Assembly: GCA_950295325.1 (NCBI GenBank)
Contig: OX485808.1
Span: 24,448,527 to 24,512,526 of the forward strand
Length of the DNA stretch: 64,000 bases
Direction of reading: 5' to 3'
From: Polytrichum commune
Lineage: Eukaryota > Streptophyta > Polytrichopsida > Polytrichales > Polytrichaceae
Numbering within the stretch: position 1 is the first letter of the stretch; every line of letters starts with the position of its first letter. The notes beneath the pieces are model-generated. The model worked only from the letters and a program-made list of their open reading frames with translations, searched no databases and was not told the origin of the DNA. This document shows positions 1 through 60,800 of this stretch, one piece after another. The position numbers were made by a program, and so were the translations under genes.

Positions 1-1242
1 GGAAAAATTAAGTTAAAAGGGCAAGGATTTGGGTTCCTTGAAATGGGCACTAATTGTACTCAAGTTTTCATCCCCCAGGTTTTGGAAATAAGTCCACTTA
101 AGTTGTGAATATGGGTTGGGAGATAATCTTGCCTTTGATAATATACAATTTCGTAACTTGAAAATAAGTTGTGATCTTTTTTTGTTAAACGTTGTGGTAT
201 CAATTTTCAGACTTGTGAAAATCCCCTCCAAGATCACACGCTTGTACTACACATATGTGAGATTGCTTATGGGTAACATAAACATATACGTTTACTCTAC
301 CTATACTACATTTTTTTGACTCAAAGATGTACTATAGTGTATGAATTAGAAACTTTATATTGTGAAGGCATACAAAAGAAAGTTCTAGGGAGTTAATTTT
401 TAAATCCCATTCGTGCGGCTGGAATATGGATCTTTATCCTTGGTCTCCACCAAATCATTTTACAAACATATTCCTTCAAAAAAAAATACAAATTCCAAAA
501 TGTATAAAAAATACTTGGCTTTTGATACGATTGGCTAAAATTTTGAGCTACATAATTGAGTGGGAAAAACAGAAAAATATTCATGTCACCGACATTGTTC
601 CTTTCCCAAAATAATCAACTTTGTAACAAAAAAATTAAAAATTTAATCACTTCAAAGTTCATATCTTAGAGTCATTGATATAAAAATTTGATTCATTTTC
701 TTTAGACGATGCAAAAATTTATTATGTCAAAGTGCAAAGAAAAGAAAGTTAAAAAAGAGAAAAGTTTTCCTTGAGAGATACATGTTTGAAAAATACTCGC
801 CATCACTTTTTGGCTTCTTGGGCATTTAGGGGTTAAGTAATCGGAAATGGGTCTGTCTTCTCGACCAAAGCCAAGACTCAAGAAAGCGAAGAGAAACCGA
901 ACGTTGTTTTCGCGGGCTCAGTGCAGACCGGGCAAGGGTTTTGCCAGGGTTTTGCACTCGTCGTCGTCGTCGTCTTCTCCTTTCCCCTTGCTTATATTTC
1001 TCCATATTCTTCTATTTCGCTTTCTTGTTGTTGAGCAAAGACACATACGAAGTGAGGAGGAAAGCGGCTGCGGTGGTTCCGGTGCAATTTTTTTTCTTGC
1101 CATTCGAGCTATGGTGTGCCCCTCTGCAACAGGGATGGTTAGGGTTTAGGGCACAGGGCACGGGGGGTAGGGTTTTACGGCAATCTGTTTGGGGAAGCAT
1201 TTCAGGAGGAATCGACAGGGAGGAAACTCGAGGTAGGGAACA
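1..1242. other. Upstream region and 5' leader of SF3B3
   Basis: No gene is recognised. Bases 1-840 are AT-rich and featureless. From about 850 the composition becomes more GC-rich and leader-like, with short CGT/CTT runs near 957-985. Several short upstream ORFs (for example from 847 and 941) precede the SF3B3 start codon. They have no recognisable products and could be leader uORFs if transcription starts upstream of them. No TATA box could be assigned with confidence. Confidence 0.5.
1139..1151 (-). promoter_or_regulatory. Telo-box-like motif in SF3B3 leader
   Basis: The plus strand reads TTAGGGTTTAGGG, so the minus strand contains AAACCCTAA, the plant telo-box. Telo-boxes are known near the starts of many plant translation and RNA-processing genes. 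Here the motif lies about 90 bases before the start codon of a splicing factor gene. A regulatory role is inferred from position and motif only. Confidence 0.45.
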
Positions 1243-4200
1243 ATGTTTTTGTACAGTTTAACGTTGCAGCAGGCGACGGGGATAGTGTGTGCGACGTATG
1301 GGAACTTCACGGGAGGGAAGACACAGGAGATAGTGGTAGCTCGAGGGAAGGTGCTGGACTTGCTAAGGCCCGATGACAATGGCAAGCTGCAAACAATGCT
1401 CTCCGTGGAGATTTTTGGAGCGATACGATCACTCGCACAGTTCCGTCTCACAGGCTCCCAGAAGGATTACATCGTGGTAGGCTCGGACTCCGGCCGCATA
1501 GTCATCCTGGAGTATAACAAGGAGAAGAACATATTCGAGAAGATTCATCAGGAGACATTCGGGAAGTCAGGGTGTCGAAGGATTGTTCCTGGGCAGTACT
1601 TAGCCGTTGATCCTAAGGGACGAGCGGTGATGATCGGAGCATGTGAGAAGCAAAAGCTGGTTTATGTGTTAAATCGAGACAATGCTGCAAGGCTGACCAT
1701 CTCATCACCATTGGAAGCACATAAGTCACATACCATAGTGTATTCTATTACGGGTGTTGATTGTGGTTTTGATAACCCTATTTTTGCAGCTATTGAGTTG
1801 GATTACTCTGAAGCAGACCAAGATTCCACTGGACAAGCTGCGAACGAAGCCCAGAAGCATTTGACATTCTATGAGCTCGATTTGGGCCTTAACCATGTGG
1901 TTAGGAAGTGGACGGAGCCTATTGATAATGGTGCTAATATGTTGGTAACGGTTCCTGGTGGAGGTGATGGACCCAGTGGGGTTCTTGTATGTGCAGAGAA
2001 TTTTGTCATATATAAGAATCAAAACCAGCCGGATGTTAGGGCGGTGATTCCCCGAAGGCAAGACTTGCCTCCAAACAGGGGAGTGTTGATAGTCTCTGCT
2101 GCAACACATAAGCAAAAGACTATGTTTTTCTTTCTGTTGCAAACTGAGTATGGTGACATCTTCAAAGTGACATTGGACTATGATAAGGATGATCAAGTCA
2201 CTGAGCTCAAGATTAAGTACTTTGATACCATCCCTGTGACTTCTGCCATGTGTGTTTTGAAATCGGGTTTCCTATTTGCTGCTTCAGAATTTGGGAACCA
2301 TTCTTTATACCAGTTTCAGGGAATTGGTGATGAGCCTGAGGTAGAGTCATCATCGTCAACTTTGATGGAGACTGACGAGGGCTTTCAGCCAGTATTTTTC
2401 CAGCCCAGGAAATTAAAGAATTTGGTACAAATTGATGAGATTGAAAGTCTGATGCCCATTATGGACATGAAAGTGGCGAATATCTTTGAAGAGGAGACAC
2501 CTCAAATTTTTGCTCTTTGTGGAAGAGGTCCACGCTCGTCGCTTCGTATCCTTCGACCCGGTCTGGCAGTCACAGAAATGGCTGTTTCCCAGCTTCCGGG
2601 TGTGCCAAGTGCTGTGTGGACAGTTAAGAAGAATGCAAACGACGAGTTTGATGCATATATTGTGGTCTCATTCGTGAATGCCACACTGGTGCTTTCTATT
2701 GGAGAAACTGTGGAGGAAGTAAGTGACAGTGGTTTTCTGGACACAACTCCATCTTTGGCAATTTCTCTCTTGGGTGATGACTCACTTATGCAAGTGCACC
2801 CCAGTGGCATCCGACATATCCGTGCAGATGGGCGTATCAACGAGTGGAAAACACCAGGAAAGAAGACTATTGTGAAAGTTGGGTTCAATCGGATGCAGGT
2901 GGTCATTGCCCTAAGTGGTGGGGAGCTCATCTATTTTGAAATGGATATGTCTGGGCAGTTGATGGAAATCGAGAAGCGAGAAATGTCTGGGGATGTGGCA
3001 TGCCTTGACATTGCACCTGTGCCTGAGGGCCGCCAGCGTTCTCGGTTTCTGGCTGTCGGTTCTTATGACAGCACCATACGCATACTGTCTCTTGACCCAG
3101 ATGATTGTATGCAAATTCTGAGTGTTCAAGCAGTGTCATCTCCACCAGAGTCACTCCTGCTCCTTGAAGTGCAAGCCTCTTCGGGAGGTGAAGATGGTGC
3201 GGATCATCCAGCAAGCGTGTTTCTGAATGCAGGTTTGCAAAATGGAGTGTTGCTGAGGACAGAGGTGGACATGGTCACTGGCCAGCTGTCTGATACACGT
3301 ACTCGATTTTTAGGTTTAAGAGCTCCAAAGCTTTTCTCAGCTTTGGTTAGGGGTCGACGTGCCATGCTTTGTCTTTCCAGCAGGCCTTGGCTTGGTTACA
3401 TCCACCAGGGGCACTTCCTGTTGACGCCATTATCGTATGAAACTTTGGAGTATGCAGCATCATTCTCCTCAGATCAGTGTGCAGAAGGTGTGGTGGCTGT
3501 TGCAGGAGATGCTCTTCGAGTTTTTACTATTGAGAGACTAGGAGAGACATTCAATCAAACAGTCATGCCCCTCCGGTATACTCCCCGGAAGTTCATCCTC
3601 CATCCTAAGCAAAAGTCTCTTATTATACTTGAGAGTGACCAAGGGACCTTCACAACAGAGGAGCGGGATGCCAACAAAAAGGAGGCAGTGGAAGCTGCAG
3701 GTGAGTGTCAAATTTGACTTGTTCTCATGCTGGTTCAGGATGTCTAGGAAATGAGGATTGACTGTGCATTGACATCCACTAGCACCATTAAGTTTGTCTG
3801 GAAAGTTTTCTAGTTTAGCTAGATTGCTGAGTATGATGGAGCAAAGGAATATATTGGTGTTGATAGTTTTCATGTGTTGCTTGTCTGATCATTGATTATC
3901 TAGTGTGAGCTGCATGCTTTACACACACATATATCTATCTATCTATCTGTATTTATGCCATGATTGAATTTGCTTGGTTACCCATTCACAGGTAGCATTG
4001 ATGATATTTGGTAGCAAGTATCAGTGGTCTGTTACTTTTTGATTTCATTAGTGAATGACCAGTTGCATCAGAAATCATGAGTTGAGTACAGTAGCTGAAA
4101 AGGAAGTGCTTGCTTTGACTATAGGTGGTCAGGAGAATGGAAAGGCAGAGGGAGATGATGATGAAATGGCAGATGGAGACAAGGAGGATCCGCTCCCTGA

Positions 4201-46763: not shown

Positions 46764-47841
46764 GGGCCACTTCACACACGAGCCAAGAGGCGTGACCAAA
46801 AAAATTGTGAGAGCCCAAAAGAAAGTGTCCAAAGGCCGTCCCAAGACACCTGCAAAATCATGTAGTGTGGTCACGGACTCTCAAGTGTAGTGTGAAGTCA
46901 TATGTGACCGGGCCCTCAACCACATGCTATTTGAATGAATTTCTATTCATACGGGTTCTCACACATGATAGAATAGAATAAATCAACGGTTGTGAGCGTT
47001 CAGAGTGCCATGGTCTCCCGGATTTATGTTAGGCCTACCTCCAAGAGGTGGTTTTCGGAAATAATCCAAGTGACCATGAAACATGATCCATTCAATGCCA
47101 TGTAAGAATCCATGTGGACTTGACATCCATCAACTTGCATTCACATACTCCAATGGTCCCTCAAGCGTAGTGTGAGGCGAACATGGACCGGCTCCGCCTT
47201 TTCCACCAATGAGAGTGCTTGAAGTGTAATGACTGGCTCCGTTGGTCATGGGCTCTCAGTCTCATGTGTGAAGTCATTATGATTTCTTGGAATTGTTTCT
47301 TTGATCAATAAAACAACTTTCAATCATCCTTTGTTATACTTAGGGCCACTTCACACATGAGACTAAGAGCTCGTGACCATTACACTTCAAGCACTCTCAT
47401 TGATGGAAAAAGCGGAGCTGGTCCAAGTTCGCTCCACACTATGCTTGAGGGACCAATGGAGTATGTGAATGCAAGATGGATATCAAGTCTACATGGATTC
47501 CTACATGGCATCGAATGGGTCATGTTTCATGGTCACTTGGACTATTTTCGAAAACCACCTCTTGGAGGTAGGCCTAAAACAAAACCGGGAGACCATGGCA
47601 CTCCGAACACTCACAACCGTTGATTTATTCTATTCGATCATGTGTGAGAACCCGCATGAGAAGAAATTCATTCAAATAGCATTTTGTTGAGGGTCCAGTC
47701 ACATATGACTTCACACTACACTTGAGAGTCCATGACCACACTACATGATTTTGGAGGTGTTTTGGGACGGCCTTTGGACACTTTCTTTTGGGCTCTCACA
47801 ATTTCATGGTCACGGCTCTTGGCTCATGTGTGAAGTGGCCC
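46764..47841. mobile_element. Inverted pair of PIF/Harbinger-like MITEs (large foldback)
   Basis: The left arm begins GGGCCACTTCACACACGAGC; the right end is the inverted form and is followed by TAA, matching the TAA before the left end (46761-46763 and 47842-47844). The two ~0.5-kb halves (46764 to about 47274, and 47343-47841) are reverse complements along almost their full length, with only about 70 bases between them. Each half itself starts and ends with the same terminus. This is either two opposite insertions or one long foldback. It ends 32 bases before the retrotransposon. Confidence 0.85.
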
Positions 47842-47873
47842 TAATTGATCACTTGTTGTGGCCAAACCAACAA

Positions 47874-48315
47874 TGTCACGGTATGCGGCGTCGACGGCCG
47901 CACCTCATCCGTTGGGTTTCATCCATCTAGATTTGGATGGATGAATCTAGATGTGGAGAGGAAGGCTCCTAAGTGAGGAGCCTCCTCCTTGGCTTGGCAT
48001 TCTTGCCAAGTCAAGTCTTGTGAGTTAGTGTGTGGAGAGAGCTTGTGTGAGGTGTAGATTGCATGATTTTGCAATAAATCTTGAGTTCTTCTTCCCCTAC
48101 TTACACTCTTGGATTCTCCCTTGGTGGAGTGAGAGATAGCTTGACTAATTTGTGTGCATTTGAAGAGATTTAGAGCTATTGTGAGTGTTCTACTCTCTTC
48201 CTTCTCACTTGGCAAGAATGTTTGATTCCTTCTCTTTTCTTCAAATCTTGAGCTACAACATTCAAGCAAGAGTGTGAGGACAAGTGGTGGCGGGATTGTG
48301 GAGTGGAGAACGACA
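47874..48315 (+). repeat. 5' LTR (shared 333-bp part 47874-48206)
   Basis: Bases 47874-48206 match 57362-57694 with a single difference (GGAGAG versus GGTGAG). The 5' copy then continues into sequence not found at the 3' end, up to a possible CGACA terminus at 48315. That would make a 442-bp LTR with TGTC...GACA ends. An AATAAA polyadenylation-type signal lies at 48073-48078. No TG-starting sequence like the 57254 repeat precedes it, so the 5' LTR appears to lack that part. Confidence 0.8.
47884..48010 (+). other. Cluster of four perfect stem-loops at the LTR start
   Basis: Four consecutive perfect inverted repeats occur: TGCGGC/GCCGCA (47884-47902), CATCTAGATT/AATCTAGATG (47924-47953), AGGCTCCT/AGGAGCCT (47963-47983) and CTTGGC/GCCAAG (47993-48010). 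All are conserved in the 3' copy. They could fold in the transcript 5' end or be protein-binding palindromes; this is inference. Confidence 0.8.
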
Positions 48316-49745
48316 AACATCGCGGATTAGCGGAGCAACAAGAAGAAAAATGTTGCTTGTGAAGTTTACACATCATTTTGAATTGTGGTGAGAAATTTCT
48401 CAATACTACACGGAATTGCTTGTTATGAGTTGCCTACAAGCATGAATTTGTGAAGTAGGAGGTGAAAGAGGCATTCTTGATCCTCAAAAGGGATCAAATT
48501 TTTGACCTAAAAAAATAAAAAAATAAAAAAAATTGAAAGAAGAGGGAGGCAGTCTGCCTCCCTCTGCAGCCGGCCCCTGGCCAGCAGACTGTCTGTGGCT
48601 GCGGGCGTCAGTTTGCGTCTGCCGGCGTCTGTTATTTACCTTTGCTGACTGCCGAACCCCACTGTCTGTCGAACCCTGCTGTCTGTCCCTGCCGGCCTGC
48701 CTGCCAGGCCGTCTGTCTGCAAGGCAGTAGGAGTTAACCCCCTTTTCTGCAAGGAACTAATTTCCCCCCCTTAGCAATTCTCGGATCAGGGATTTTGGTT
48801 TGGGCATAATTGGTTGGGATCTAGGTGTTTGCAAGTCCAACCGGTTACATTTTTTTATTTTGATTTGATTTTTGATTTATTTTTGATTTAGTTTTATTTT
48901 TGTGTTTGTTTTAATTAATTAATGCATTAATTAATTACAACCGGATTTTATAATTATAATTTATTTATTTATTATTATAAATTTCCTTACAACTTCTAAT
49001 CCTTTCTCTTCTCTCTAAGAGGTTAATTTCTTGGGCTTATTAATCAAGGATACAAGGAAGAAAACTTAAGCTCTTATGAAATATTAAAATACTTGGGATT
49101 TCTTTTTAGGGGTTGTGTTGTACGAAATTTCCGAGAAGAATGCCATTGGAGATTGGGTGCCATGTGGAATTTTGTTCGGCCTAAAATAAATTATTATTAG
49201 GGTCGAATCGTGTTTGTCAACACATATTCCCGACATTCTTGTGAGGAGGGATTCTTAGGTTGTAGTGGGAAGATGAGCGATGTGCTTATGCAATTTTTTT
49301 TCTTAAGCAACAGGGGCTCTCCATTTTGACCACCAACCGCAGGCGGGTGCCGGTTGGTCGCGGTCGTTTTCAATTTCTGCTTAAATGTTGTTTGGGGAAG
49401 AAGATCCAGTGCTGAAAATTGCATTGTTTTCTGTCTTTTATTTTGGTACCTTCCCCCGTGGCGGGTTGTATTGCTGACAGTTCTCGGCATTGCCCCATTT
49501 TGGTGTTGTTATAGATTGTGATAGGGTACTGTGGAGGTGAGGTCGGATTAATGACCGACGGGACCTTTGTTTGTGTACCAAGTGGGCGGTGCTTGTTTTC
49601 ACTTGTGGTGAGGCTGGGTTAATGACCAGCAGACCATAAGTTTTGGTGGTGGTTGCAGGTGCAGGTTGTCTTTGACCCTTTTTCTCTTTGTACCTGGATA
49701 CTAATTTTTGGGTTGTTGATTCGGTGACCATCCCATTGTGGGTTT
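48316..49745 (+). other. Long untranslated leader of the retrotransposon
   Basis: About 1.4 kb separates the 5' LTR from the gag start. It contains no recognised protein, has CTGTCTGTC-type reiterations at 48590-48725 and AT-rich runs at 48850-49000. No clear sequence complementary to a tRNA 3' end was found. It should hold the packaging signal and primer-binding site. Confidence 0.55.
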
Positions 49746-52703
49746 ATGGTTACAACTCGTACTCAACACTATCGTTCTCCGTCCCCAGGAGCATCGGAAG
49801 GTCATCCCTCGGACGTTAAACCAGTGGTAGCACCCAACGAGGCTTTTCAGCCTACTTCGGCGTGGGGGACTATCACTCGGTCTCACGTCCTGTGGGTGGG
49901 AACCTTTGACGATATGGAGGAGGAGACTAGGGAAGGGATACGGGACCGGTTTTCTGGTCGAGCAGGGACCATTTCTCTGCAAGACTGGAAAATCCGGTTT
50001 TGTACGTGGATGCGAGAGAAACGCCAGCACAATACCAATTTTAACGATTGGTATGCGTTTGAGCTTCTGCCTCAGCATTTGGAGCATGAAGCTCTCCAAA
50101 CTTATGAGCAGTGGACGGAGGCTCATTGGATGGAGCTGCGCCAGGTGGAGCGGTACTGGGAGACTCGGGTTGAGTTGGTATCCGTATTGAAGGAAGGCGC
50201 AACTTCCAGTTTCATGGCCGTTCCGGATGTCAAGACGGAGGTACCGGAGGGAGGTTATGTGGTGGAGGTGGAGGGAGCTCCTCCTGGTGAGCCGAGGGCT
50301 ACGGGTTCTGCTCCCACTGCGGCGAGTACGTCGAGCCCAGTTCTTCCACTCTCGCGTTATGCCATGGCCACCCAAGCGGCTTTAGCCTCTTTAGGGGCTC
50401 CGCCAGATTTTGAGCCATTGCGGGCATTTGAGCTGCATCTACAGGGGGAGTATGGAGGCTTCCGTCGTGACCAGATGCAGCGGATACAAGATTTCAGACG
50501 GGAGAAGGACGATACACCTCGTACCATGTATACGAGGTTGGCGAGGTTTGCCAAAGAATCTGGAGGTGTGTTCGCGGAAAGTCAGTTGGTGAAGGTGTTT
50601 TTGTCAAAGATTGACAAACGTCTCCTTGACTTGGCGCTACCCAGGATCATCATGGAGTTTGGTGGTCGAGCGACACTCGCAGAGGCATTCGCCGTGGTGG
50701 AGCATTGTGATCGTGCATTATGTCAGCACGATGCCACTGATTTGGTGTCCTTGCTAGTGGATTCTAGCAAATCCCGAAGAGTTCCGGTTGCGGCTGCGGG
50801 ATTGGCGGAGGCCGAGGTAGACAAGACCATGTATTGTTGGTCTTGTGGGCAGGCCGGCCACGCTAAGAAGGACTGTCCTTCGAAGCAAAGGCAAGCCCAG
50901 ACCGTCACTACTCCGAAGCGGAAACCATTTGTTCCCGCTAAGGGCTCGGCGAAGGGGACGACGGGTAATCAGTTACCCAAGCAGTTGAAGTGTTCCCATT
51001 GTGGGCGGAACAATCACGCGGTAGAGAACTGCTTTGCTCTCCATCCTGAGAAACGTCCTTCTTCCGACCGAGAGAAGACGTTGGAGGCGAAGATTGGAGC
51101 CATGGAGGAGAGGTTTAAAAGCTTGGCGTCATCCGGCCAAATCTTGGCCTCACCGTCTTCCTCCGGAGCTCAGGCTAGTTCTTCCACTCCGGATTACTAT
51201 ATGTTCGGAGCCTCAGGCGAGGTGGTGAGTTCCGCGGCCGTGACACGTGCTCAAGCCGTGTCACAAGCCATACCTTCGACTACAAATAAATATGTGGCAA
51301 ACTCGCGAGCTCGGGACAATGCGCCCGCGGACCAAATTGGTCAGGCACGACTACCATTATCTTTTGGATTGGCCGATGCCGTCCAATCTGTCAGTGGTCG
51401 TCGTCCGAACGATGAGGTTTTACATTCAGCGACTGATGTTGCGCACACGTTGGCATCCAAGGTGTTGCACACACCTTTGTTCACGGCCATGGAGTGGTCA
51501 TCATCAGAGTTCCAACCTGCTAAGGTTTTTCACTTAGCAGGTAGGATTTTGGAAGGGAAGGCATCCTTACCTTCTCTGACCGTGGCTCAAGCCACTACGG
51601 ACATCCTTGCTTCTGAAGATCCTGAGGATGTGGCCAAACGGCGAGCGAGGCTTGCGGCAGAGACCATTGCGTCTTTTGACGCACACGCCTCAGATGACAA
51701 GACACCGACCACGTCTTATGACTCACTAGTATCCGCGGGTGCAGCCTATCTGTCTGATGTCGCTGCTAGACCTGTCCGCGAGCGCCGCGGTATTCGACCC
51801 GGCGTTGTGCGTATGGTGAATGATACCGGAATTTTGGTGGTCAGTCGCACTGGGAGCAATGCTACTCGGGTTGCTCCCCGTTGTGTGATGATGGATTCAG
51901 GGGCACAGCCAATTATGATCGGCAAGAGGCTTGCCCAAGAGTTGAGGTTGACGGCCGAGGATTTGGCTCCCTGTCCATTCACCATTGTCACATCCATTGG
52001 TCACGTGGAGCGGGCCATGGGTTATACTCGAGAGCCATTACAGCTTAGCTTCCGAGTGAAGCCTGGATATTCACCCGCACCTCTTCTTCTTAGGTGTGCG
52101 GTGACGGATGCGACCAACTATGACATTTTAGTTGGTCAGCAAACACTTTACCCTCTTGGTTTTGGTTTGGACAACTGGACTGAGGAGGCGTGGATTCGAC
52201 CAGGTTGGTCGGCTGGGGATGGCCGCAGAGAACTTATTCCCGTGGCTTTCGCGGCGGCCGCGACCATAGCACCATTATCTATGGTTTTTGGATGTGGTGC
52301 TATGGTGAACACATTGCCTTATGGTTCCGCATTGTTGGAGGAGTCATTGGCATTTATGGGGAGTACAGACGATCAACGGGATATGGCACCTAAGGGTGCA
52401 TTGGTGCGCCATCCCAAGGATCCCCTTCCTCCTTGGCGTGATTCCGCCGAGCTATTTCGGAGGTGTGAGGATATTGTTCACTCTCTCACTCCTAGGACAC
52501 CGGTCATACCGGGTGTCCTCTCGGCATTGGAACATCCCATTTTATGGCAGCCGCCAGACGCGGGGATTACTTTGGTGGAACTGTTTGGAGGCATCGGCAC
52601 AGGCTTAGCGGCCGTATTGGAAGCTGGCCTCACGGTCAGACGGTATGTCTATGTGGACAACTCTCCAGTGTCCACCCGTGTGGCTCGTCACCATCTTCAC
52701 TAG
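49746..52703 (+). CDS. gag-pro: Retrotransposon Gag-protease plus methyltransferase motif I
   Basis: This 985-codon frame encodes a retrotransposon Gag (conserved FRREKDDTPRTMYTRLARFA around residues 255-275), two CCHC zinc knuckles (CWSCGQAGHAKKDC at residue 364 and CSHCGRNNHAVENC at residue 416), and an aspartic protease with the catalytic DSGA at residues 717-720 and YDILVGQQTLYPLG further on. It then enters a C5-cytosine methyltransferase with the AdoMet-binding motif I VELFGGIGTG (F947). A UAG at 52701 closes it within the methyltransferase; the same frame continues immediately after. Gag would form the particle and bind RNA. The stop is either a mutation (a Gln codon is one step away) or a recoding site. 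Confidence 0.92.
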   Translation: MVTTRTQHYRSPSPGASEGHPSDVKPVVAPNEAFQPTSAWGTITRSHVLWVGTFDDMEEETREGIRDRFSGRAGTISLQDWKIRFCTWMREKRQHNTNFNDWYAFELLPQHLEHEALQTYEQWTEAHWMELRQVERYWETRVELVSVLKEGATSSFMAVPDVKTEVPEGGYVVEVEGAPPGEPRATGSAPTAASTSSPVLPLSRYAMATQAALASLGAPPDFEPLRAFELHLQGEYGGFRRDQMQRIQDFRREKDDTPRTMYTRLARFAKESGGVFAESQLVKVFLSKIDKRLLDLALPRIIMEFGGRATLAEAFAVVEHCDRALCQHDATDLVSLLVDSSKSRRVPVAAAGLAEAEVDKTMYCWSCGQAGHAKKDCPSKQRQAQTVTTPKRKPFVPAKGSAKGTTGNQLPKQLKCSHCGRNNHAVENCFALHPEKRPSSDREKTLEAKIGAMEERFKSLASSGQILASPSSSGAQASSSTPDYYMFGASGEVVSSAAVTRAQAVSQAIPSTTNKYVANSRARDNAPADQIGQARLPLSFGLADAVQSVSGRRPNDEVLHSATDVAHTLASKVLHTPLFTAMEWSSSEFQPAKVFHLAGRILEGKASLPSLTVAQATTDILASEDPEDVAKRRARLAAETIASFDAHASDDKTPTTSYDSLVSAGAAYLSDVAARPVRERRGIRPGVVRMVNDTGILVVSRTGSNATRVAPRCVMMDSGAQPIMIGKRLAQELRLTAEDLAPCPFTIVTSIGHVERAMGYTREPLQLSFRVKPGYSPAPLLLRCAVTDATNYDILVGQQTLYPLGFGLDNWTEEAWIRPGWSAGDGRRELIPVAFAAAATIAPLSMVFGCGAMVNTLPYGSALLEESLAFMGSTDDQRDMAPKGALVRHPKDPLPPWRDSAELFRRCEDIVHSLTPRTPVIPGVLSALEHPILWQPPDAGITLVELFGGIGTGLAAVLEAGLTVRRYVYVDNSPVSTRVARHHLH

Positions 52704-53822
52704 TTGATGGTATTGTACCCCCAACAATTACACCCAACTGCCATTCATGGGCGTTTTTCACGTCTCCCTCGTGATGTTACACTCATCAGTGAGGCCGACT
52801 TACGACACTTGGGCCCGGTGGATATGGTGATTGCGGGATGGCCATGCCAAGGCCACTCACGTGCTGGAGCAGGCCGAGGTTTAGAGGATCCCAGGTCTAG
52901 CCTTTTCTGGGACCTCATCCGGCTTATGCAGTGGTGGTTTATCCACCAACCTTCCCCTCCAGGGTATATCTTCGAGAATGTACCTTTGTTGGGAGACTCT
53001 CGGGACAAGGTGTTGGAAGGCGATTATTATGTTCGTCAACACCTTGGAGATCCCATTTTTGTGGATGCCGCGAGCATTGGTTCTTATGCCCACCGACCTC
53101 GGTGGATTTGGACCAACCTCGCACCGTCATCTACTTTAGCTGCAGCATTTTCTGTAGTGCCTCCACCTTTTGATCAAAAGGTGGATGACATCTTGGATCC
53201 AAACTGGACTTCTTTGCCGGTTATTCGAGATGATTTACCCCCGTTGGCATTAGTCAACAAAATGGGGGCACCACGGCGGGCCTTTCCCACATTTATGACG
53301 TTTCCACAGTCATTCGCTTTCCGCGATAGGGGGCCGGATATGGTGTGGGATGTTCACACCAAAACCCACACCGAACCATTGGCTGACGAACGGGAACGTG
53401 CCATGGGATTCCGCACTGGCACCACCGCAGCTCCCGGCCTTTTTGAGGGCCAACGACGCTTCGTGTTGGGCCAAGCTATGGATCTTCATACTATGGTGTG
53501 GACTGTTGCTTTATGCCTTTCATTGCAAAGGCATCGTGGTGACCAGTGGTTGTCTCTGGGGGCAGAGGACTCTGGTCAGGGGGCACAACGGTCCACACCC
53601 ATGGAGGAAGGAATTTACGCCATGGTTGGAGAAGCCGAACGAATTTTTCAATTCGAGCAGCATGTGATGGAGGAGCTTCGAGCTCAATATTTTTACACTG
53701 CTTCGGTTTCTTCGCCTCCGGTAGTGGCTTCATCATCATATATTGGTAGTGATGAAGAAATGTCAGACTCTAGTACTAGCACCGAGACTGGGGGCATGGT
53801 TAATGTCCCCTCCTTTCATTAG
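52704..53822 (+). CDS. C5-cytosine DNA methyltransferase domain (motifs IV-X)
   Basis: In the same frame after the UAG, the rest of the methyltransferase follows. It has motif IV WPCQGHS with the catalytic cysteine codon at 52845-52847, motif VI ENV (codon at 52974), a motif VIII-like YAHRPRWIWTNL near 53083-53118, and a C-terminal GQAMDLHTMVWTVAL near 53469 resembling motif X. With motif I upstream this is a full catalytic domain in linear order, most like DNMT3-type enzymes and unlike the permuted plant DRM arrangement. A regulatory N-terminal region is absent. It would transfer methyl groups from S-adenosylmethionine to cytosine in DNA. The listed start is the codon after the stop, not a proven initiation site. 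It ends at UAG 53820. Confidence 0.93.
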   Translation: MMVLYPQQLHPTAIHGRFSRLPRDVTLISEADLRHLGPVDMVIAGWPCQGHSRAGAGRGLEDPRSSLFWDLIRLMQWWFIHQPSPPGYIFENVPLLGDSRDKVLEGDYYVRQHLGDPIFVDAASIGSYAHRPRWIWTNLAPSSTLAAAFSVVPPPFDQKVDDILDPNWTSLPVIRDDLPPLALVNKMGAPRRAFPTFMTFPQSFAFRDRGPDMVWDVHTKTHTEPLADERERAMGFRTGTTAAPGLFEGQRRFVLGQAMDLHTMVWTVALCLSLQRHRGDQWLSLGAEDSGQGAQRSTPMEEGIYAMVGEAERIFQFEQHVMEELRAQYFYTASVSSPPVVASSSYIGSDEEMSDSSTSTETGGMVNVPSFH

Positions 53823-53828
53823 CAATTA
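53820..53828 (+). promoter_or_regulatory. Leaky stop context UAG-CAA-UUA
   Basis: The stop between methyltransferase and reverse transcriptase reads TAG CAA TTA, with the frame open on both sides. UAG-CAR-YYA is the established tobamovirus-type readthrough context in plants. Here it would let a fraction of ribosomes make the RT-RNase H-integrase part. Function is inferred from sequence identity and position. Confidence 0.6.
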
Positions 53829-54689
53829 GAGTCTGTGCCAGCATCAGGTGGTTCTCCTTTGGTGGAGAGGGAGACTACAGAGTTTGATGATTGGCCACTT
53901 GAATTAGGCCCTCGTCTCACTGGTGCTGAGGCACGGAAGGTACGAGCATTTATTCGCTCGTACCGTAGATGTTTTGCTTTTAGCCTTCAAGATCTTGAAG
54001 GTTATAAAGGAAAACCCATCCACATTCAGTTGGAGGACGACCATCCCATTTTTCGGAGACCTTACAGGCTGAGTGTTTCCGAGCGGATTGGCGTTCAGGC
54101 TCGTTGCCGAGAGCTCTTGGCAGCAGGGTTAATCGAACTTTCCAACGGGGAGTATGCTTGTGCTACGGTTATGCCATCGAAGAAGGATATCTTTGGCAAT
54201 TGGATGGAGAAGCGGATGTGTGGGGATTACCGTCCAGTTAATCGGAAGACCAAGTCGGATCGATATCCCATTTCAATCCCGGAGGAGTTGTTCGATGCCC
54301 TCGGATTTGCTCGAGTCTTTAGCACGTTGGACTTGAGATCCGGCTATCACCAACTCCCATTACTTGTGGGAGACCGAGTGAAAACCGCATTCTGGGGAGT
54401 TGATCAAGATGGAAAAGATCAACTTTACCATTGGAAGTTTCTTCCGTTTGGCCTGAAGAATGCACCTGCGGAGTTTCAGAGAGTGATGGACCAAGTTCTC
54501 TCTGGCTTACCCTTTGCTCGGTGTTACATTGATGACGTTATCATTTTCAATATAACACCACAGGAGCATGTAAGGCATCTTCAAGCTGTTTTTGAGCGGT
54601 TGCAGCGGTGGGGATTGCGCTTGCACCACGGCAAGTGCAAGTTTTTCCATGACCGGCTGGCATATCTGGGGCATATGATTGTTCCATGA
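53823..54689 (+). CDS. pol: Ty3/gypsy reverse transcriptase
   Basis: In the same frame after the UAG, the RT has the usual blocks in order: a PYRLSVSERIGVQ lead-in, KRMCGDYRPVNRKT, STLDLRSGYHQLPL, FLPFGLKNAPAEFQRVMDQ and the catalytic CYIDDVIIF (YIDD codons at 54525-54536), then KCKFFHDRLAYLGHMI. It would copy element RNA into DNA in the particle. A TGA at 54687 stops the frame just after LGHMIVP, at a place where related elements read through into the RT thumb, so this stop looks like a disabling mutation (CGA or GGA to TGA). Confidence 0.93.
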   Translation, partial: QLESVPASGGSPLVERETTEFDDWPLELGPRLTGAEARKVRAFIRSYRRCFAFSLQDLEGYKGKPIHIQLEDDHPIFRRPYRLSVSERIGVQARCRELLAAGLIELSNGEYACATVMPSKKDIFGNWMEKRMCGDYRPVNRKTKSDRYPISIPEELFDALGFARVFSTLDLRSGYHQLPLLVGDRVKTAFWGVDQDGKDQLYHWKFLPFGLKNAPAEFQRVMDQVLSGLPFARCYIDDVIIFNITPQEHVRHLQAVFERLQRWGLRLHHGKCKFFHDRLAYLGHMIVP

Positions 54690-55973
54690 GGTCTTGGGGT
54701 ACAACAAGCTAAGGTGGACGCCTTGCAGAAGATTCCGGCACCGGTTGATGTGCCGAGACTTCGTACTTTTTTGGGCTTGGCGAATTACTATCGGCGATTC
54801 GTCAAGAACTTTAGCTTGATCGCTAAGCCTCTCACCATTCTCACGAGCAAGGACCAACCGTGGACTTGGGGTCGTGAGCAACAACAGGCGTTTGAGACAT
54901 TGAAGCAGAAACTGGGTACGGCTCCAGTGCTTCGACGTCCAGATGTCTCCAAATTTTTCCAGTTGCATACAGATTGGAGTTCATTGGGTTTGGGAGCAGT
55001 TCTCACTCAGAAGGATGATTTTAGTCGGGAGTATGTTGTTGCTTACGCTTCGCGAAGTAATAACACGGCGGAGGCTAATTATTCATCCTACGAGGGAGAA
55101 GCATTGGCGGCGGTATGGGCTATTGCTCATTTTCGGCCGTATCTTTATGGTCAACACTTTACTTTAGTGACTGACCATCAGCCGTTATGGTGGCTCATGG
55201 AGTCGGATAAGCTTACTGGCAAGCTTGCCATGTGGGCTTTATTGCTCCAGGAGTATGACTTTGAGGTGGTACACCGTGCTGGGATTACCAACATGGATGC
55301 AGATGGACTCTCACGCAATCCAAGTCCTTCAGATGAGGACTTGACCGGGGCCAGATGGCATGGAGATTGTGATCGAGAGGCGGTTCCAGGTTGGCACGCG
55401 GCTGCCTACCTTACCTTATTTTCTGGTGCATCTGTTGAGATTCCGATACAGGGTTCGGATGATGAGACTGATCGGCCTCAAGCTATTGTGGATATATGGG
55501 AGGATCTTCCCGTATTGCATAAGCTTCAACAGGGTACCTTTCCTTTGTCTATTTCGGCAATGGAAAGGGATAGGATTGGACATCGAATAACAAGGTTCCG
55601 TTGGGAGAACGGTTTGTTATTTCGATTGTGGCCGGATGGGACAAGGCGTATTGTTCCTAGGCCGGATCAGAGGGCCTCCTTGATGCGACAAGTGCACGAG
55701 GAACTTGGCCATTTTGGCATACGTAGGACACATTCGATGTTGCGTGGCCAATATTGGTGGACTGGCATGTATCAGCAGGTGGCTGCTTATGTCGGGAGGT
55801 GTGAAGTTTGTGACCGGGTCAGGTTTAGCTTTAGCACCTTGTCACCTCAGTTACAGCCCTTACCTATCATGGGATTGGGCTACCGTTGGTCGCTAGACTT
55901 TGCGGGACCGTTGGTTGTCACACCACGTGGAGCAAAGTACGTGTTGGTGATGGTGGAGCATTTTAGCAAGTGA
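54690..55973 (+). CDS. pol: RT thumb, RNase H and N-terminal integrase
   Basis: The frame continues with RTFLGLANYYRRFVKNFS (RT thumb), the RNase H domain (HTDWSSLGLGAVLTQ, YEGEALAAVWAI, LVTDHQPLWWL), a linker, then the integrase HHCC zinc-binding domain (HEELGHFGIRRTHSML ... CEVCDR). The integrase core begins at YRWSLDFAGPL with the first catalytic aspartate. A TGA at 55971 falls where HFSKW is expected, so it is probably a TGG to TGA change. The product would degrade the RNA strand and bind DNA ends. Confidence 0.92.
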   Translation, partial: GLGVQQAKVDALQKIPAPVDVPRLRTFLGLANYYRRFVKNFSLIAKPLTILTSKDQPWTWGREQQQAFETLKQKLGTAPVLRRPDVSKFFQLHTDWSSLGLGAVLTQKDDFSREYVVAYASRSNNTAEANYSSYEGEALAAVWAIAHFRPYLYGQHFTLVTDHQPLWWLMESDKLTGKLAMWALLLQEYDFEVVHRAGITNMDADGLSRNPSPSDEDLTGARWHGDCDREAVPGWHAAAYLTLFSGASVEIPIQGSDDETDRPQAIVDIWEDLPVLHKLQQGTFPLSISAMERDRIGHRITRFRWENGLLFRLWPDGTRRIVPRPDQRASLMRQVHEELGHFGIRRTHSMLRGQYWWTGMYQQVAAYVGRCEVCDRVRFSFSTLSPQLQPLPIMGLGYRWSLDFAGPLVVTPRGAKYVLVMVEHFSK

Positions 55974-56969
55974 ATTGAACTTGTTGCTTTACCCCAAAAC
56001 TCTGCAGAGTTGGCCGCGGCCGCCTTTTTGGATCGTGTGTTGGCACGTTTTGGAGCACCGGCTGAGGTGTTGACGGACCAAGGGAGGGAGTTCCTTGGTG
56101 TTTTTGAGGAGTTGTGTACTAAGGCGCTCATAGATCACCGCACCACCTCTCGGGATCATCCGGAGGCAGATGGCTTGGCTGAACGGGTTGTTCAGACAAC
56201 CAAGCGTGGCTTGAGGAAGTATGGATTACTTCGGGGAAGCCACCGGGATTGGGACCTTATGTTGCCTTGGATTGCTATGGGCTATCGATTTAGTAGGCAA
56301 GGGTCTTTGGCATCCTACAGCCCGTATCAATTATTGTATGGACGTGAGCCTATACTCCCGAGTTCTATTCGGGAAAAACTAGCTCTTGTTGTGAACTTGG
56401 ATGACCCAGACCTTTGGGCAGAGTGTTTGCAGGAGCGGGCTCAATTCTTCCAGAGGGCCATGCCTATGGCCATGGAGAATTTGTCCATTGCTCAGCACCG
56501 TGACACATTGCGTTATGCACGCATTCGTAGTGGTGCTTATCGACCTCAGTTGCAGAGATTTCGGCAAGGGGATTATGTCTATCTCCAACGTGAGGCGCCT
56601 ACGACATTGGATGTCAGGGCGGGGCGCACTATCCTTCGGGTGAAGGAGGTGTTGCCGAGTGGTTTGTTGTTGCTGGAAGGCAAGGATGGCAGGCAATGTC
56701 GCGAGCATTCCAAAAACTGTGCCCCATGTCATCTACCTATTGAGGGTACAGTTCATCCTGAACTGGCCGTCGTGCCAGAGGGTCTTCCATGTTTTGTGTG
56801 TGGAGAGAAGAAAGGAGCGGCTACTATACTCTTGTGTGATCAATGTCAACGCGGTTGGCACATGACATGCTTGAGGCCACCCTTGACTTCTCTACCATCT
56901 GGACAGTGGAGTTGTCCTCGCTGTCGAGGATCTTCGGTACTTGGTGTTTCCACCAATCGTACTCAATGA
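55974..56969 (+). CDS. pol: Integrase catalytic core and C-terminal PHD zinc finger
   Basis: The core continues with TDQGREF (second aspartate) and DHPEADGLAERVVQTTKRGL (glutamate of the DDE triad). A GPY/F-like SH3 segment follows (FRQGDYVYLQRE ... ILRVKEVLPSGLLLL). The last 60 residues form a complete C4HC3 PHD finger (56790-56924): CFVC, then LLCDQCQRGWHMTCLRPPL, then WSCPRC. PHD fingers commonly read the histone H3 tail. Its position equals that of the targeting chromodomain of chromoviruses, so a role in choosing integration sites is a reasonable inference. The natural end of the long frame is TGA at 56967. Confidence 0.92.
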   Translation: MELVALPQNSAELAAAAFLDRVLARFGAPAEVLTDQGREFLGVFEELCTKALIDHRTTSRDHPEADGLAERVVQTTKRGLRKYGLLRGSHRDWDLMLPWIAMGYRFSRQGSLASYSPYQLLYGREPILPSSIREKLALVVNLDDPDLWAECLQERAQFFQRAMPMAMENLSIAQHRDTLRYARIRSGAYRPQLQRFRQGDYVYLQREAPTTLDVRAGRTILRVKEVLPSGLLLLEGKDGRQCREHSKNCAPCHLPIEGTVHPELAVVPEGLPCFVCGEKKGAATILLCDQCQRGWHMTCLRPPLTSLPSGQWSCPRCRGSSVLGVSTNRTQ

Positions 56970-57241
56970 TCCTGTGTGGTTTTCATCATCTTGTGCCTGC
57001 CCAAATGGAAAATGAGGAGTTATGGCTTAGAGACGCAATCAACATGAGGCGGTGGATTTAATTATTTGGGATCTGATGGCCAAACATCAGAGGCGATTAA
57101 AGATGGGGCTCACATTGCACCCAGCCTACAGTTCCTTGGAATAACGTTTACCACACTAGTTAGTTGCGGAGCAATCTTTCATTATTCATGCCCTTTAGAT
57201 TGGCATTGGTCCTAGCTGTTTGGCGGGACTCCATAGTCAGC

Positions 57242-57253
57242 TGAGGGGGGGCA
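57242..57253 (+). promoter_or_regulatory. Polypurine tract
   Basis: TGAGGGGGGGCA directly precedes the TGTCGAGG sequence at 57254. A G-rich purine run just before a TG terminus is where plus-strand synthesis is primed and marks the 5' edge of a 3' LTR. This supports 57254, not 57362, as the start of the U3 region. Confidence 0.75.
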
Positions 57254-57800
57254 TGTCGAGGTGTGTTGTTTATGTGTGACTTTGCTATGTTTTAGTGTTG
57301 TTTGTTAGTGGTGGTTGGTACTCGAGCTGCAGTGACACACGATCGTTATTTACACGACAGCTGTCACGGTATGCGGCGTCGACGGCCGCACCTCATCCGT
57401 TGGGTTTCATCCATCTAGATTTGGATGGATGAATCTAGATGTGGAGAGGAAGGCTCCTAAGTGAGGAGCCTCCTCCTTGGCTTGGCATTCTTGCCAAGTC
57501 AAGTCTTGTGAGTTAGTGTGTGGTGAGAGCTTGTGTGAGGTGTAGATTGCATGATTTTGCAATAAATCTTGAGTTCTTCTTCCCCTACTTACACTCTTGG
57601 ATTCTCCCTTGGTGGAGTGAGAGATAGCTTGACTAATTTGTGTGCATTTGAAGAGATTTAGAGCTATTGTGAGTGTTCTACTCTCTTCCTTCTCTGTCGA
57701 GGTGTGTTGTTTATGTGTGACTTTGCTATGTTTTAGTGTTGTTTGTTAGTGGTGGTTGGTACTCGAGCTGCAGTGACACACGATCGTTATTTACACGACA
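57254..57800 (+). repeat. Composite 3' LTR with a duplicated 106-bp block
   Basis: A 106-bp block (TGTCGAGG to CACGACA, with TGTCG/CGACA ends) occurs at 57254-57359 and, identically, at 57695-57800. Between them are two bases and the 333-bp segment shared with the 5' LTR (57362-57694, AATAAA at 57561-57566). The 106-bp block is absent from the 5' LTR, and the 5' LTR's 48207-48315 part is absent here. This layout does not follow from normal LTR replication. Confidence 0.9.
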
Positions 57801-60800
57801 ACAAGGTTAGTATCATGATATAGGGATGTTTAAAGGTTTGCTTTCTTTATAAAAGCATAAATAATCATGCACCAAATACTACAACTCCTACTAAGTCGAA
57901 CGCACCGACCATCACGTTGCATTCCACATTAAAAAAGAACCCCTCACACAATGACATTTGAAAAGATCTCTTGTATCCACACATCCCCTTGCACATGACT
58001 TCCAACCTCTATTTTTCAAACAAGCACAATGCATACGTACTTCAAGAAACGCACTTATTTCCTTGAGGTATGTGGGTGTTATTTGATTACTTTTCTTAAT
58101 GGGGCACCTATATGTGAATTGGTGTGTGGTTAGGCGAGAATCGGAGAACACACACCATAAAAACACATGTGTTCAGAGAGATCGAAGTACATCTTCAAGT
58201 TTTATTAACTACTCCACATTCGATAATGAACACAAATTGGGAGAACCTATGTATTCAATTAAGAAATCGACAAGCATACACTTCCGATACACAACACTAA
58301 ATCATGGGAGGTCCATTTTTCAACATGGTGTTTGATGGTGTTCCAACAAAGATTTACTAATCCAACATAAATTTGAAGACATAAATCAAATCAATAGATG
58401 ATGGAATGAATTGAATCACACCCGCATTCATTAGATTACAACTAACGAAACTTCCAACCACTACGATGGGTAGTCCTTTAACTAATAGTGGCCTTAAATA
58501 ACGTCTACAATATAGGTAAATATTCAACTCCAAAACTTACCTATTGGGAAGGAATCCATCTAAGGTTGATAGTCTTAAATTGTTACTTTTTCTAACCAAC
58601 CCACTTCTCCAAGAAACACACAATTAGATAAGATGGTTAGCAAATTCTAACCAAGGCCATAGCCACTTCCCTTATGATTTTCGGAGCTCATGTAAATATC
58701 TTATTCATTATTAAAGTATGTATTCTCATGCTCCTTAAATGGTCACACAAGTCCTCCCAATTATGTGGATTGAGTGTGTACTATTGAACCTAGAACGGTC
58801 ATCGTATTTTGGGCACACAATCCAATCTCTTTTAAACACGTGTCTCTTTGGGAGCCACACCAAACCACATACCACTCAAATACATAGGTCCTAAGAAGAA
58901 TAATAATCAACTGTGTACCTTAAGGAAATATGTGACCAACATTTAACAATTCAAATGACGTGCATATCAACTCCAAAAAAGCAATTCAACTATCATGATC
59001 TTTATTTGGACTTTCCCATCAACTCGTATAACACATGGCAAGGCTTGTAATAAACTATGGACATAAAAAATAGAACACATGTCATGATGAGATTGGATTA
59101 TGTGTTTAGAATTTAGATACCACCTTGGATCAAATAAGTAGCACGATTGAAAGTACCTATGTAACTATATATATAAAAGAATATTCACTTTGATTTTCTA
59201 AAGCTTTTGCATATCAAGTTTGATTTTGAAACTTGACATGACAATCTTCGACATTTGTAGTTGTTCACTAAACGAGACAATTTCCAAAGTCCAAAATTAT
59301 TAGTGGACTTGGAAGTGCACACAACGTGGCCACATACATTAGTATCCATTCATGTGCCATTCATGCCTAGCCCACCTCATTTCGAGATGAAACACAAAAC
59401 ATATAGACATCTTCATGACACGTACCTCAAGAAAACATCAATACATATGTTATTGTAGCTTAACTTAGTGCCCAAGGCTAACCCATTGCAAGGAATTTAA
59501 AAATAACGAGATCCAAGAATGAGTCCCACACTTTGATGAGACCCCAAGACCCTCACAACCCCCCCCCCCCCCCCAAAGGAAAGAAAAGAAAAGCCATGTC
59601 GCACAAGGGTTGCCATTGCCTTGGATAATTGGACTAGATGATATTACAAAACGAACACAAAAATAAAAAAATGGCATGTGATTGAGGATTACTTCCAAAA
59701 CGTCCAATTTAACTTAAATGGATGATGTTCATTACATTAAGGGTTAATTTAGGACAAGGCCACTATATTGTGAGGATTCAAAAATTGGACATGACTCATG
59801 AACAAATCCCACACGACAATAGGCCCCAACACTCACATGACACGCATACACACCCTATTCACGTGGAAGAATGTGAGGCCCATGTCCGCTTAGTGCCAAT
59901 GGCACTCGAGGCGCCTCACTTGAAAACAAAAGCCAAAGCCCCATGCATCAAAGAAGGCCGCCACTATTGTTTGACCAGTCGTCCCGCAATCTTGAGTTCC
60001 AAGCTTTGGCCTCGATTTGGATTTGCGTACAGACTTGGTCCTAATTTTTGTTTGTTATTACAAGGCACCTCACGTCGCGTAATCTTCCTTTTGACTTTTC
60101 CGGAGGGAATTTTGATTTCTTATTATGCATGAAAACATCTAGAAATTACAGCTACATCTTTACGTACGGTGAGACCTTTGAGAAAAGACGTCGTTGAAAT
60201 TAAGACCTCCCCACTCGGTCTCCTGGCGAAGGGGTCCTTATTTCCGATAATGCCACGTCTCTCGGGCCTCACTTAGTACTAACCATCTAGTACTAATGGC
60301 ATGTTTCATATCATAGGAAAAGTGGGCTAGTAACCATTTAAGACCCATCTACCTTACATCCTATTCCCGTGGAGGAATGCGAGGCCCATGCCCGTGTCCG
60401 CTTGGTGGCGATGGTTGGCACTCAAGAAAGCCCGCCTTCTCGAAAACAAATGCCAGAGCCCAACGTAACAACGCAAGGCAACGCAACGAACGAATAAGGC
60501 TGAGTGAAGAACCACCACCACCACCACCACCACCACTCTCATCACTGCAATGGTCATCCCGCAAATCCGAGGAGCTCCAAAACCTAACACTTATTAAGCC
60601 TCTCACTTGCAAGATTGCGCTCCACAATTTTGCTGAACATGCTCCCGCATTGTAAATCCTACGAGAATGTGCGCAATCTGTTGTAACGAGGTTTTGGACG
60701 ATGATGTGTTTCCTGAGGTTTCGAATGCTCGGCATGCTCGGATGAAGGATTCCACATCGAGGTTGAGCAATTGGAGCCCGTTCGGTTGATTGGTTGCTTG

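Follow-up and report, generated by a model that had tools for sequence, protein, structure and literature searches.

The window analysed here is a stretch of 64,000 nucleotides (nt) from Polytrichum commune (GenBank assembly GCA_950295325.1, contig OX485808.1, positions 24,448,527 to 24,512,526 of the forward strand). It contains a Ty3/gypsy-type retrotransposon that carries its own cytosine methyltransferase, as an earlier note had proposed from the letters alone; Pfam domains, PF00145 among them, bear out this proposal. The span given in that note, 49746-56969, does hold the coding frame. It was too narrow for the element, which occupies 47874-57800 with its end repeats and lies between 4-bp target duplications (Table 1). 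Both the Ty3/gypsy domain order of protease, reverse transcriptase (RT), RNase H and integrase (the protease by motif only) and the target duplication are present. The coding region consists of two open reading frames (ORFs) that share one frame around a stop codon, Gag-protease-methyltransferase and RT-RNase H-integrase-PHD.

Four in-frame stops were found in the window copy (52701 TAG, 53820 TAG, 54687 TGA and 55971 TGA). Three of them are disabling, one inside the methyltransferase (52701) and two in the RT-integrase frame (54687 and 55971). Thus, the window copy is broken, and the "complete" domain and "frame continuity" described earlier cannot be maintained; as shown below, the stop at 53820 belongs to the family. 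An alternative genetic code was disfavoured as the reason for the stops, since the SF3B3 ORF of the window conforms to the standard code and open sister copies exist.

Table 1. Features of the retrotransposon and its flanks in the window.
Feature	Position	Strand	Remarks
Left target-site duplication ACAA	47870..47873	.	equals 57801-57804
Left B repeat, 333 nt, TGTCACGG; genomic 5' end	47874..48206	+	1 mismatch to 57362-57694
Predicted self-primer and likely transcript start, CATTCTTGCCAAGT	47998..48011	+	14-nt exact complement of 48207-48220
Predicted primer-binding site, ACTTGGCAAGAATG, immediately 3' of B	48207..48220	+	complement of 47998-48011
ORF1, Gag-protease-methyltransferase	49746..53822	+	open copies: about 1366 aa; the window copy is interrupted by TAG at 52701
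Two CCHC-type zinc knuckles (Gag)	50835..51032	+	by eye in the translation; no Pfam match in that piece
Presumed protease active-site motif MMDSGAQ	51888..51908	+	by motif only; no Pfam match in the 985-aa piece
Dnmt3-type C5 methyltransferase core, motifs I to X	52584..53483	+	PF00145; profile and fold of relatives nearest DNMT3A/B; motif positions
ORF1 stop TAG CAA TTA	53820..53828	+	type I (UAG CAR YYA) readthrough context
ORF2, RT-RNase H-integrase-PHD	53823..56969	+	open copies: 1045-1048 aa; the window copy is interrupted by TGA at 54687 and 55971
Reverse transcriptase, RVT_1	54210..54680	+	Pfam E 2.3e-28
RNase H, RT_RNaseH	54942..55256	+	Pfam E 7e-35
Integrase H2C2 zinc-binding domain	55662..55820	+	Pfam E 1.4e-17
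Integrase core (rve), interrupted by the 55971 stop	55983..56162	+	E 2.6e-5, under the curated cut-off here; over it in relatives
C-terminal PHD finger	56790..56924	+	PF00628, E 3.6e-11
Polypurine tract, GAGGGGGGGCA, abutting A	57243..57253	+	
First A repeat, 106 nt	57254..57359	+	identical to 57695-57800
Palindrome, GACAGCTGTC, predicted integrase cutting site	57356..57365	+	inside the 20-nt core TTTACACGACAGCTGTCACG
Right B repeat	57362..57694	+	
Second A repeat, genomic 3' end ..CACGACA	57695..57800	+	
Right target-site duplication ACAA	57801..57804	.	equals 47870-47873

The methyltransferase and integrase-PHD pieces were searched against the whole assembly (408 Mb, 64 contigs). With the methyltransferase piece, 110 loci were scored among 608 first-look candidates, at 73-100% identity, so that the genome holds at least 110 such loci. 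The piece was stop-free at 39 of the 110, of which 10 belong to open frames of 1360-1372 aa by visual count. For the integrase-PHD piece, 121 loci were scored among 1563 candidates, 30 of them in an open, stop-free frame of 1045-1048 aa (again by eye). A second subfamily, S2, is 86-88% identical in the integrase; the methyltransferase was present in all six S2 loci fetched, one of them frame-shifted. Contig C4 of the same genome holds many less similar copies with stops (by eye), and may be old heterochromatin or a sex chromosome.

A one-off chimera or an assembly error in the window is thus refuted, and its chance is negligible. The three disabling stops are what it would have in its favour; against it stand the loci counted above, database relatives that reach 88% identity across 84% of the piece, and proteins of Marchantia, Klebsormidium and Closterium in which the methyltransferase likewise lies ahead of RT. 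Other genomic copies with the domain, which the earlier note had named as a check, therefore exist in number.

The class of METHYLTRANSFERASE and the constraint on it were assessed by Pfam, by a profile of 42 relatives, by a model of the relative P0006 and by the ratio of nonsynonymous to synonymous substitution rates (dN/dS). PF00145 matched the piece after the first stop (52704-53819, E 1.5e-12), and motif I lies just upstream of that stop. The motifs FGGIGTG (52584-52604), WPCQGHS (52839-52859), ENVPLL (52974-52991), HRPRWIWTN (53091-53117), ERERAMG (53388-53408) and GQAMD (53469-53483) follow one another in this order. Their positions agree with the order read before (FGGIGTG, WPCQGHS, ENV, RPRWIWTN and a C-terminal block), and the domain does lie between a protease-like motif and RVT_1, all in one frame. 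We take the motif MMDSGAQ (51888-51908) to be the protease active site; in the relative P0282, an aspartyl protease Pfam match precedes the methyltransferase.

The profile, made from 42 relatives picked out of 120 listed, was searched against solved structures. Its top matches were DNMT3A, DNMT3C and DNMT3B (best, DNMT3A, 1.4e-27). Lower matches were the plant methyltransferase 4onj (3.2e-13), which we take to be DRM, as well as DRM2 (1.6e-11) and HhaI (8.6e-9). Nothing named DNMT1 or CMT was present among the 57 profile matches to solved structures. The AlphaFold model of P0006 (455 aa) had a mean confidence (pLDDT) of 84.5, with most of the domain above 90. When this model was compared by Foldseek, the best match was the DNMT3A-DNMT3L structure 6f57 (E 7e-20; TM score 0.84 by target and 0.54 by query), and all 50 rows shown were DNMT3. 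These results, obtained with sequence profile and predicted fold against solved structures, indicate that the domain is a real C5 methyltransferase of the Dnmt3 type, with DRM, DNMT1, CMT and bacterial enzymes all more remote from it than DNMT3.

Within the window's family, dN/dS was 0.36 for the methyltransferase (28 copies), 0.14 for RT (24 copies) and 0.50 for the stretch before the methyltransferase (24 copies), taken from pairs with dS above 0.02 among 28 copies including that of the window. At the highest dS, the methyltransferase value was 0.27. Against L069, a more distant element introduced below, the values were 0.11 for the methyltransferase (26 copies), 0.07 for RT (21 copies) and 0.09 for the protease (18 copies), at dS of 2.46, 1.30 and 2.23, respectively, of which at least two are near saturation. 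Between the methyltransferases of S1 and S2, dN/dS was 0.13 (bootstrap 0.09-0.21), with one of two pairs estimable and some dS values saturated. These ratios indicate that the methyltransferase is under constraint, but less so than RT. The catalytic motifs are kept: PCQ at 26 of 27 loci, EN[VA] at 26 of 27 and HRxR at all 27, the sample being those loci, out of 35 given, that yielded the segment (26 copies of the window's family plus L069).

If the domain were catalytically dead and served, like DNMT3L, as a DNA- or RNA-binding part of Gag, the weaker constraint would be understandable, as would the lack of visible activity of the Klebsormidium nitens enzyme, itself an inconclusive result. The retained catalytic motifs and the high confidence of the P0006 model over most of the domain argue against this explanation, and we regard it as quite unlikely.

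The boundary between the two ORFs was compared among copies. In the window's family, the stop reads TAG CAA TTA or, in L178, TAG CAG TTA at 28 of 28 loci (the window and 27 sisters). It reads TAG CAA TCA at all six S2 loci and in L069, whose two open frames are in register and separated by one stop (the contig begins within the ORF1 frame). Tobacco mosaic virus is the type case of type I stop-codon readthrough. The motif of this class is UAG CAR YYA (PMC11166343), and all boundary stops of the window's family, S2 and L069 fit it. Because the context fits across loci, the stop at 53820 is a regular family feature and not damage. In open copies, the methyltransferase ends ORF1 ahead of UAG CAA UUA, in the same frame as Pol. 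Thus, the domain, which the earlier note had placed in frame between protease and RT, has no direct fusion to RT and lies before a leaky-type stop. If the readthrough works, the methyltransferase would be on every Gag-protease chain and RT on only a fraction.

Database relatives of the methyltransferase numbered 146 at E 1e-3 or better. The best 120 of these include a protein of the liverwort Calypogeia fissa and another labelled as derived from a bacterial metagenome-assembled genome (MAG). P0006 is named as from a Candidatus Obscuribacterales MAG, and is probably a misbinned eukaryotic contig. Relatives of ORF2 that also bear PF00145 are P0287 of Klebsormidium nitens, P0299, P0312 and P0357 of Closterium sp. 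NIES-54, P0326 and P0330 of Marchantia polymorpha, and P0251, P0266, P0278, P0282 and P0304. In all 11, the methyltransferase lies ahead of RT in one chain; those among them that are annotated are gene models and may splice over stops. The two Marchantia proteins combine PF00145 with RT and RNase H. A PHD finger is found in most listed ORF2 relatives that reach that far, whether or not the methyltransferase is present (by eye). In P0088, P0090 and P0109, a different order is seen, as the methyltransferase is placed between RNase H and integrase.

The distances of the two parts were also compared. From 17 sequences given, 16 had both parts (P0109 has no usable RT match), and two near-identical rows were dropped. 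Over the 14 elements left, methyltransferase and RT distances agree (r 0.84; none of 5000 permutations as high), with several deep branches weakly supported and P0287 a possible counterpart of the published copy. This agreement is compatible with a single ancient capture in streptophyte elements or, at the least, with inheritance of the two parts together.

A search of a genome collection gave 42 loci. The one examined, L069, is a 9.3-kb contig (1-9285) that carries a eukaryotic-type element, is binned with a cyanobacterium and is 73% identical; the other 41 are at 25-49% identity. The ends of the L069 contig overlap by exactly 127 nt, and it was probably assembled as a circle. Matches in viral contigs (68 loci, 23-58% over short stretches) were set aside as presumed phage or bacterial methylases, judged by the contig type.

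The ends of the element are unusual. Identical full long terminal repeats (LTRs) at both genomic ends are absent: the left end is B only, and the right end is A-gc-B-A or A. Genomic copies thus have a long form, B-body-A-gc-B-A, and a short form, B-body-A, both with 4-bp target duplications. Right ends were compared in 49 copies of the window's family (the window, 20 and 28 sisters); 33 are long, 12 are short and four have no A in the stretch. Two long forms are irregular, in that the outer A of C6_1597 breaks off after about 65 nt and an inner part of the outer A is missing in C7_36777. In the left stretches of 20 other copies, B was found in 18 (whole in 17) and A in none. Standard LTRs are ruled out by this absence of A and by the 17 whole left B repeats, which begin the element. 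The target duplications were perfect in 15 of 16 testable copies, namely in 10 of 10 long forms, including the window, and in five of six short forms (the sixth is one base off). Of six S2 right ends fetched, five carry the A repeats together with the palindrome. A left end could be located for four of the five, each time with perfect duplications.

The primer-binding site starts immediately 3' of B in all 18 other copies with B, three of which differ by one base within it or at its end. It pairs with the element itself: ACTTGGCAAGAATG with CATTCTTGCCAAGT inside B in the window, ACTTGACAACA with its complement in S2, and ACTTGACAAAGA with its complement in L069. The letters have changed in the three lineages and the complementarity has been kept, which supports self-priming, with a transcript start that is predicted only. 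On the other side, A is directly preceded by a G-run that ends in CA in the window's family and S2, and such a run stands at a like place in L069; C6_21821 is without the tract. By standard LTR logic, a polypurine tract abutting A and a self-priming site after B would give a cDNA of the form A-gc-B - body - A-gc-B.

Genomic copies begin with TGTC of B and end with GACA of A. When these ends are joined with gc, they give the palindrome GACAGCTGTC (GACA-gc-TGTC). The 20-nt core around it, TTTACACGACAGCTGTCACG, is common to the window, the S2 copies and L069. The spacing of A-gc-B is constant in 33 of 33 long right ends. At the B-A junction, the length is unchanged in 28 of 33, although three of the 28 show base changes, and altered in five, by +3, +7, +12, -24 and -4. 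The +12 insert, TGAGGGGGGGCA, is exactly the polypurine tract. A junction that bears the tract is as expected when an LTR-LTR joint keeps it, and this is the main evidence from which we infer joined or circular cDNA. In S2, the B-A junction is exact in four of four.

Alternatively, reverse transcription may itself generate the split repeats, in the manner of PAT/Ngaro-type elements, so that no joined or circular DNA is needed and the short form is a later product of A-A recombination. The layout does match the split direct repeats of those elements, KnitGypsy has been described with DIRS-like repeats, and most B-A junctions are exact. However, no tyrosine recombinase was found by Pfam in the five frame pieces or in five other ORFs of at least 100 aa inside the element, whereas integrase domains do match and copies bear 4-bp target duplications. 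Moreover, one B-A junction keeps the polypurine tract and four more gain or lose bases, while the A-gc-B length never changes. We therefore consider this explanation somewhat improbable.

The conserved palindrome at 57356-57365 has a CpG on each flank (ACGACAgcTGTCACG) in the three lineages. A CpG-methylating enzyme could in principle mark its own integrase site.

Our preferred interpretation, to which we give a probability of about 0.5, is that the window holds a broken copy of an abundant Ty3/gypsy-type family whose Gag-linked Dnmt3-type enzyme is predicted to enter the particle and to methylate cDNA that likely integrates end-joined or circular. UAG readthrough would yield some Gag-protease-methyltransferase-Pol, with the methyltransferase at the level of Gag and above that of RT. 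Self-primed reverse transcription, as in Tf1, would then give linear DNA with an A-gc-B repeat at each end. The ends would be joined, as a two-LTR circle or a head-to-tail joint, and this would create the B-A junction. Integrase is predicted to cut GACA|gc|TGTC, with gc removed and the DNA inserted. One cut of a two-repeat circle would give the long form; the short form would come from the cut of a one-repeat circle or of both sites in linear DNA. The packaged enzyme may methylate CpG on the cDNA, and the PHD finger may steer integration toward a histone state. The nearest solved PHD fingers include those of CHD4, PHF12, Lid and ATXR5.

Several points weigh against this interpretation. The exact junctions are the majority (28 of 33 unchanged in length; S2, four of four), and the end-joining signature rests on five copies. 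The short form could have arisen later by recombination between the two A repeats. The constraint on the methyltransferase is weaker than that on RT (dN/dS 0.36 against 0.14). The element is not CpG-poor, with CpG observed/expected of 0.79 in the coding part against 0.51-0.52 in two window stretches outside it. Finally, the K. nitens enzyme gave no detectable methylation in yeast, a result that its authors call inconclusive (PMC5890265).

C-to-T differences per site between window-family copies amounted to 0.049 (CG), 0.050 (CHG) and 0.036 (CHH), so that CG and CHG slightly exceed CHH (the pairs are not independent). This pattern fits methylated copies; it is silent on which enzyme methylates them. 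It could be brought forward for another explanation, in which the methyltransferase acts on the genome and silences sister copies or nearby host DNA, thereby limiting copy number or protecting the host and with it the element. Slowed retrotransposition to the benefit of the host has been raised (PMC5890265). Host enzymes would suffice for the C-to-T excess, however, and the place of the methyltransferase in the Gag ORF points to the particle; the high copy number and the undepleted CpG also speak against action on the genome, which we consider unlikely.

A bolder form of the preferred interpretation is possible, though we hold it only tentatively. Joined or circular cDNA would be the normal integration substrate, cut at the palindrome inside the LTR, so that every insertion is permuted; the Gag-linked, UAG-packaged methyltransferase would methylate the circle and keep it stable or hidden until PHD-guided integration. 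The integrases of HIV and spumavirus can cut a palindromic two-LTR junction, and HIV circles have been proposed as a reserve for integration, while integration of circular cDNA has long been seen as a dead end in retroviruses (PMC4372172). De Mendoza et al. proposed that Pol-linked methyltransferases are packaged and meet new DNA (PMC5890265).

Why retrotransposons should carry a silencing enzyme is a standing puzzle. The present family can be studied in numerous land-plant copies in which the enzyme is linked to Gag, and related polyproteins occur in the laboratory plant Marchantia polymorpha. From the ends of these copies, a concrete and testable explanation can be offered for the DIRS-like repeats of Gypsy elements of this sort, namely integration of joined or circular cDNA.

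Two other features of the window were recorded. A foldback element resembling a miniature inverted-repeat transposable element lies just upstream of the retrotransposon (46764-47841); its long inverted repeats are 90-93% complementary, with TAA on both flanks. For a splicing-factor ORF (SF3B3, 1237-3717), the best 120 of 3321 matches reach up to 100% identity and include those of Marchantia paleacea (94%), Riccia sorocarpa (93%) and the lycophyte Diphasiastrum (92%).

DNMT3 in retrotransposons of streptophytes and dinoflagellates is already in print (PMC5890265; PMC12344493), and PMC12344493 names LTR Copia and DIRS as carriers. The passages seen of PMC10952607 and PMC5784723, on bryophyte chromatin and liverwort methylation, make no mention of a retrotransposon-borne enzyme. 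In the literature searched, from which subscription papers mostly fall out, we found no description of integration at an internal palindrome in a Gypsy element, nor of a leaky stop or a PHD finger in this methyltransferase-carrying Gypsy lineage.

Parts of the element resemble several known systems. The boundary stop, TAG CAA TTA or TCA, has the sequence context of type I readthrough (PMC11166343). As in Tf1/sushi elements, which are self-primed (PMC6317226), the primer-binding site is complementary to the element's own sequence. In contrast to those elements, no chromodomain was found by Pfam in the element, and a PHD finger stands in its place. The retroviral two-LTR junction is similarly palindromic and has CA-3' ends after cutting; it is a side product joined at the reverse-transcribed ends (PMC4372172). 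In the present element, by contrast, the palindrome is internal to the repeat and marks the ends of genomic copies. PAT/Ngaro elements share the split direct repeats and differ in having a tyrosine recombinase instead of integrase domains and 4-bp duplications (PMC4157794). Neither hallmark of DIRS/PAT elements, the recombinase or the lack of a target duplication, was seen: Pfam gave no recombinase in the ORFs searched, and the duplications are present.

SymbioDIRS-Dnmt3 of dinoflagellates also carries a Dnmt3-type enzyme, with repeats arranged as A-coding region-B-A-B. It has a tyrosine recombinase, not a DDE-type integrase, and its acquisition is stated to be independent of that in K. nitens (PMC5890265). 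The earlier note had cited CG methylation by such enzymes in dinoflagellates and charophytes. This is the case for SymbioDIRS, whose enzyme is active on CG in yeast, but for the charophyte the K. nitens enzyme had no detectable activity there, inconclusively (PMC5890265).

The closest likeness is to KnitGypsy-Dnmt3 of Klebsormidium nitens (de Mendoza et al. 2018, PMC5890265), which unites Gypsy Pol domains with a Dnmt3-type methyltransferase and has DIRS-like repeats, here seen as B on the left and A-gc-B-A on the right in the window copy and the majority of its sisters. The passages of that paper on KnitGypsy offer no explanation of its repeats. Its methyltransferase is in the Pol ORF (PMC5890265), whereas here it is at the end of the Gag-protease ORF before a leaky-type UAG. 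P0287 of K. nitens has the order methyltransferase-RT-RNase H-integrase and is a relative both by its methyltransferase (40%) and by its RT (41%); it has no PHD match, but it is annotated as partial. The earlier note had left open whether the element belongs to a described lineage; the window's family appears to be a further branch of the published KnitGypsy-Dnmt3 kind, and not a one-off.

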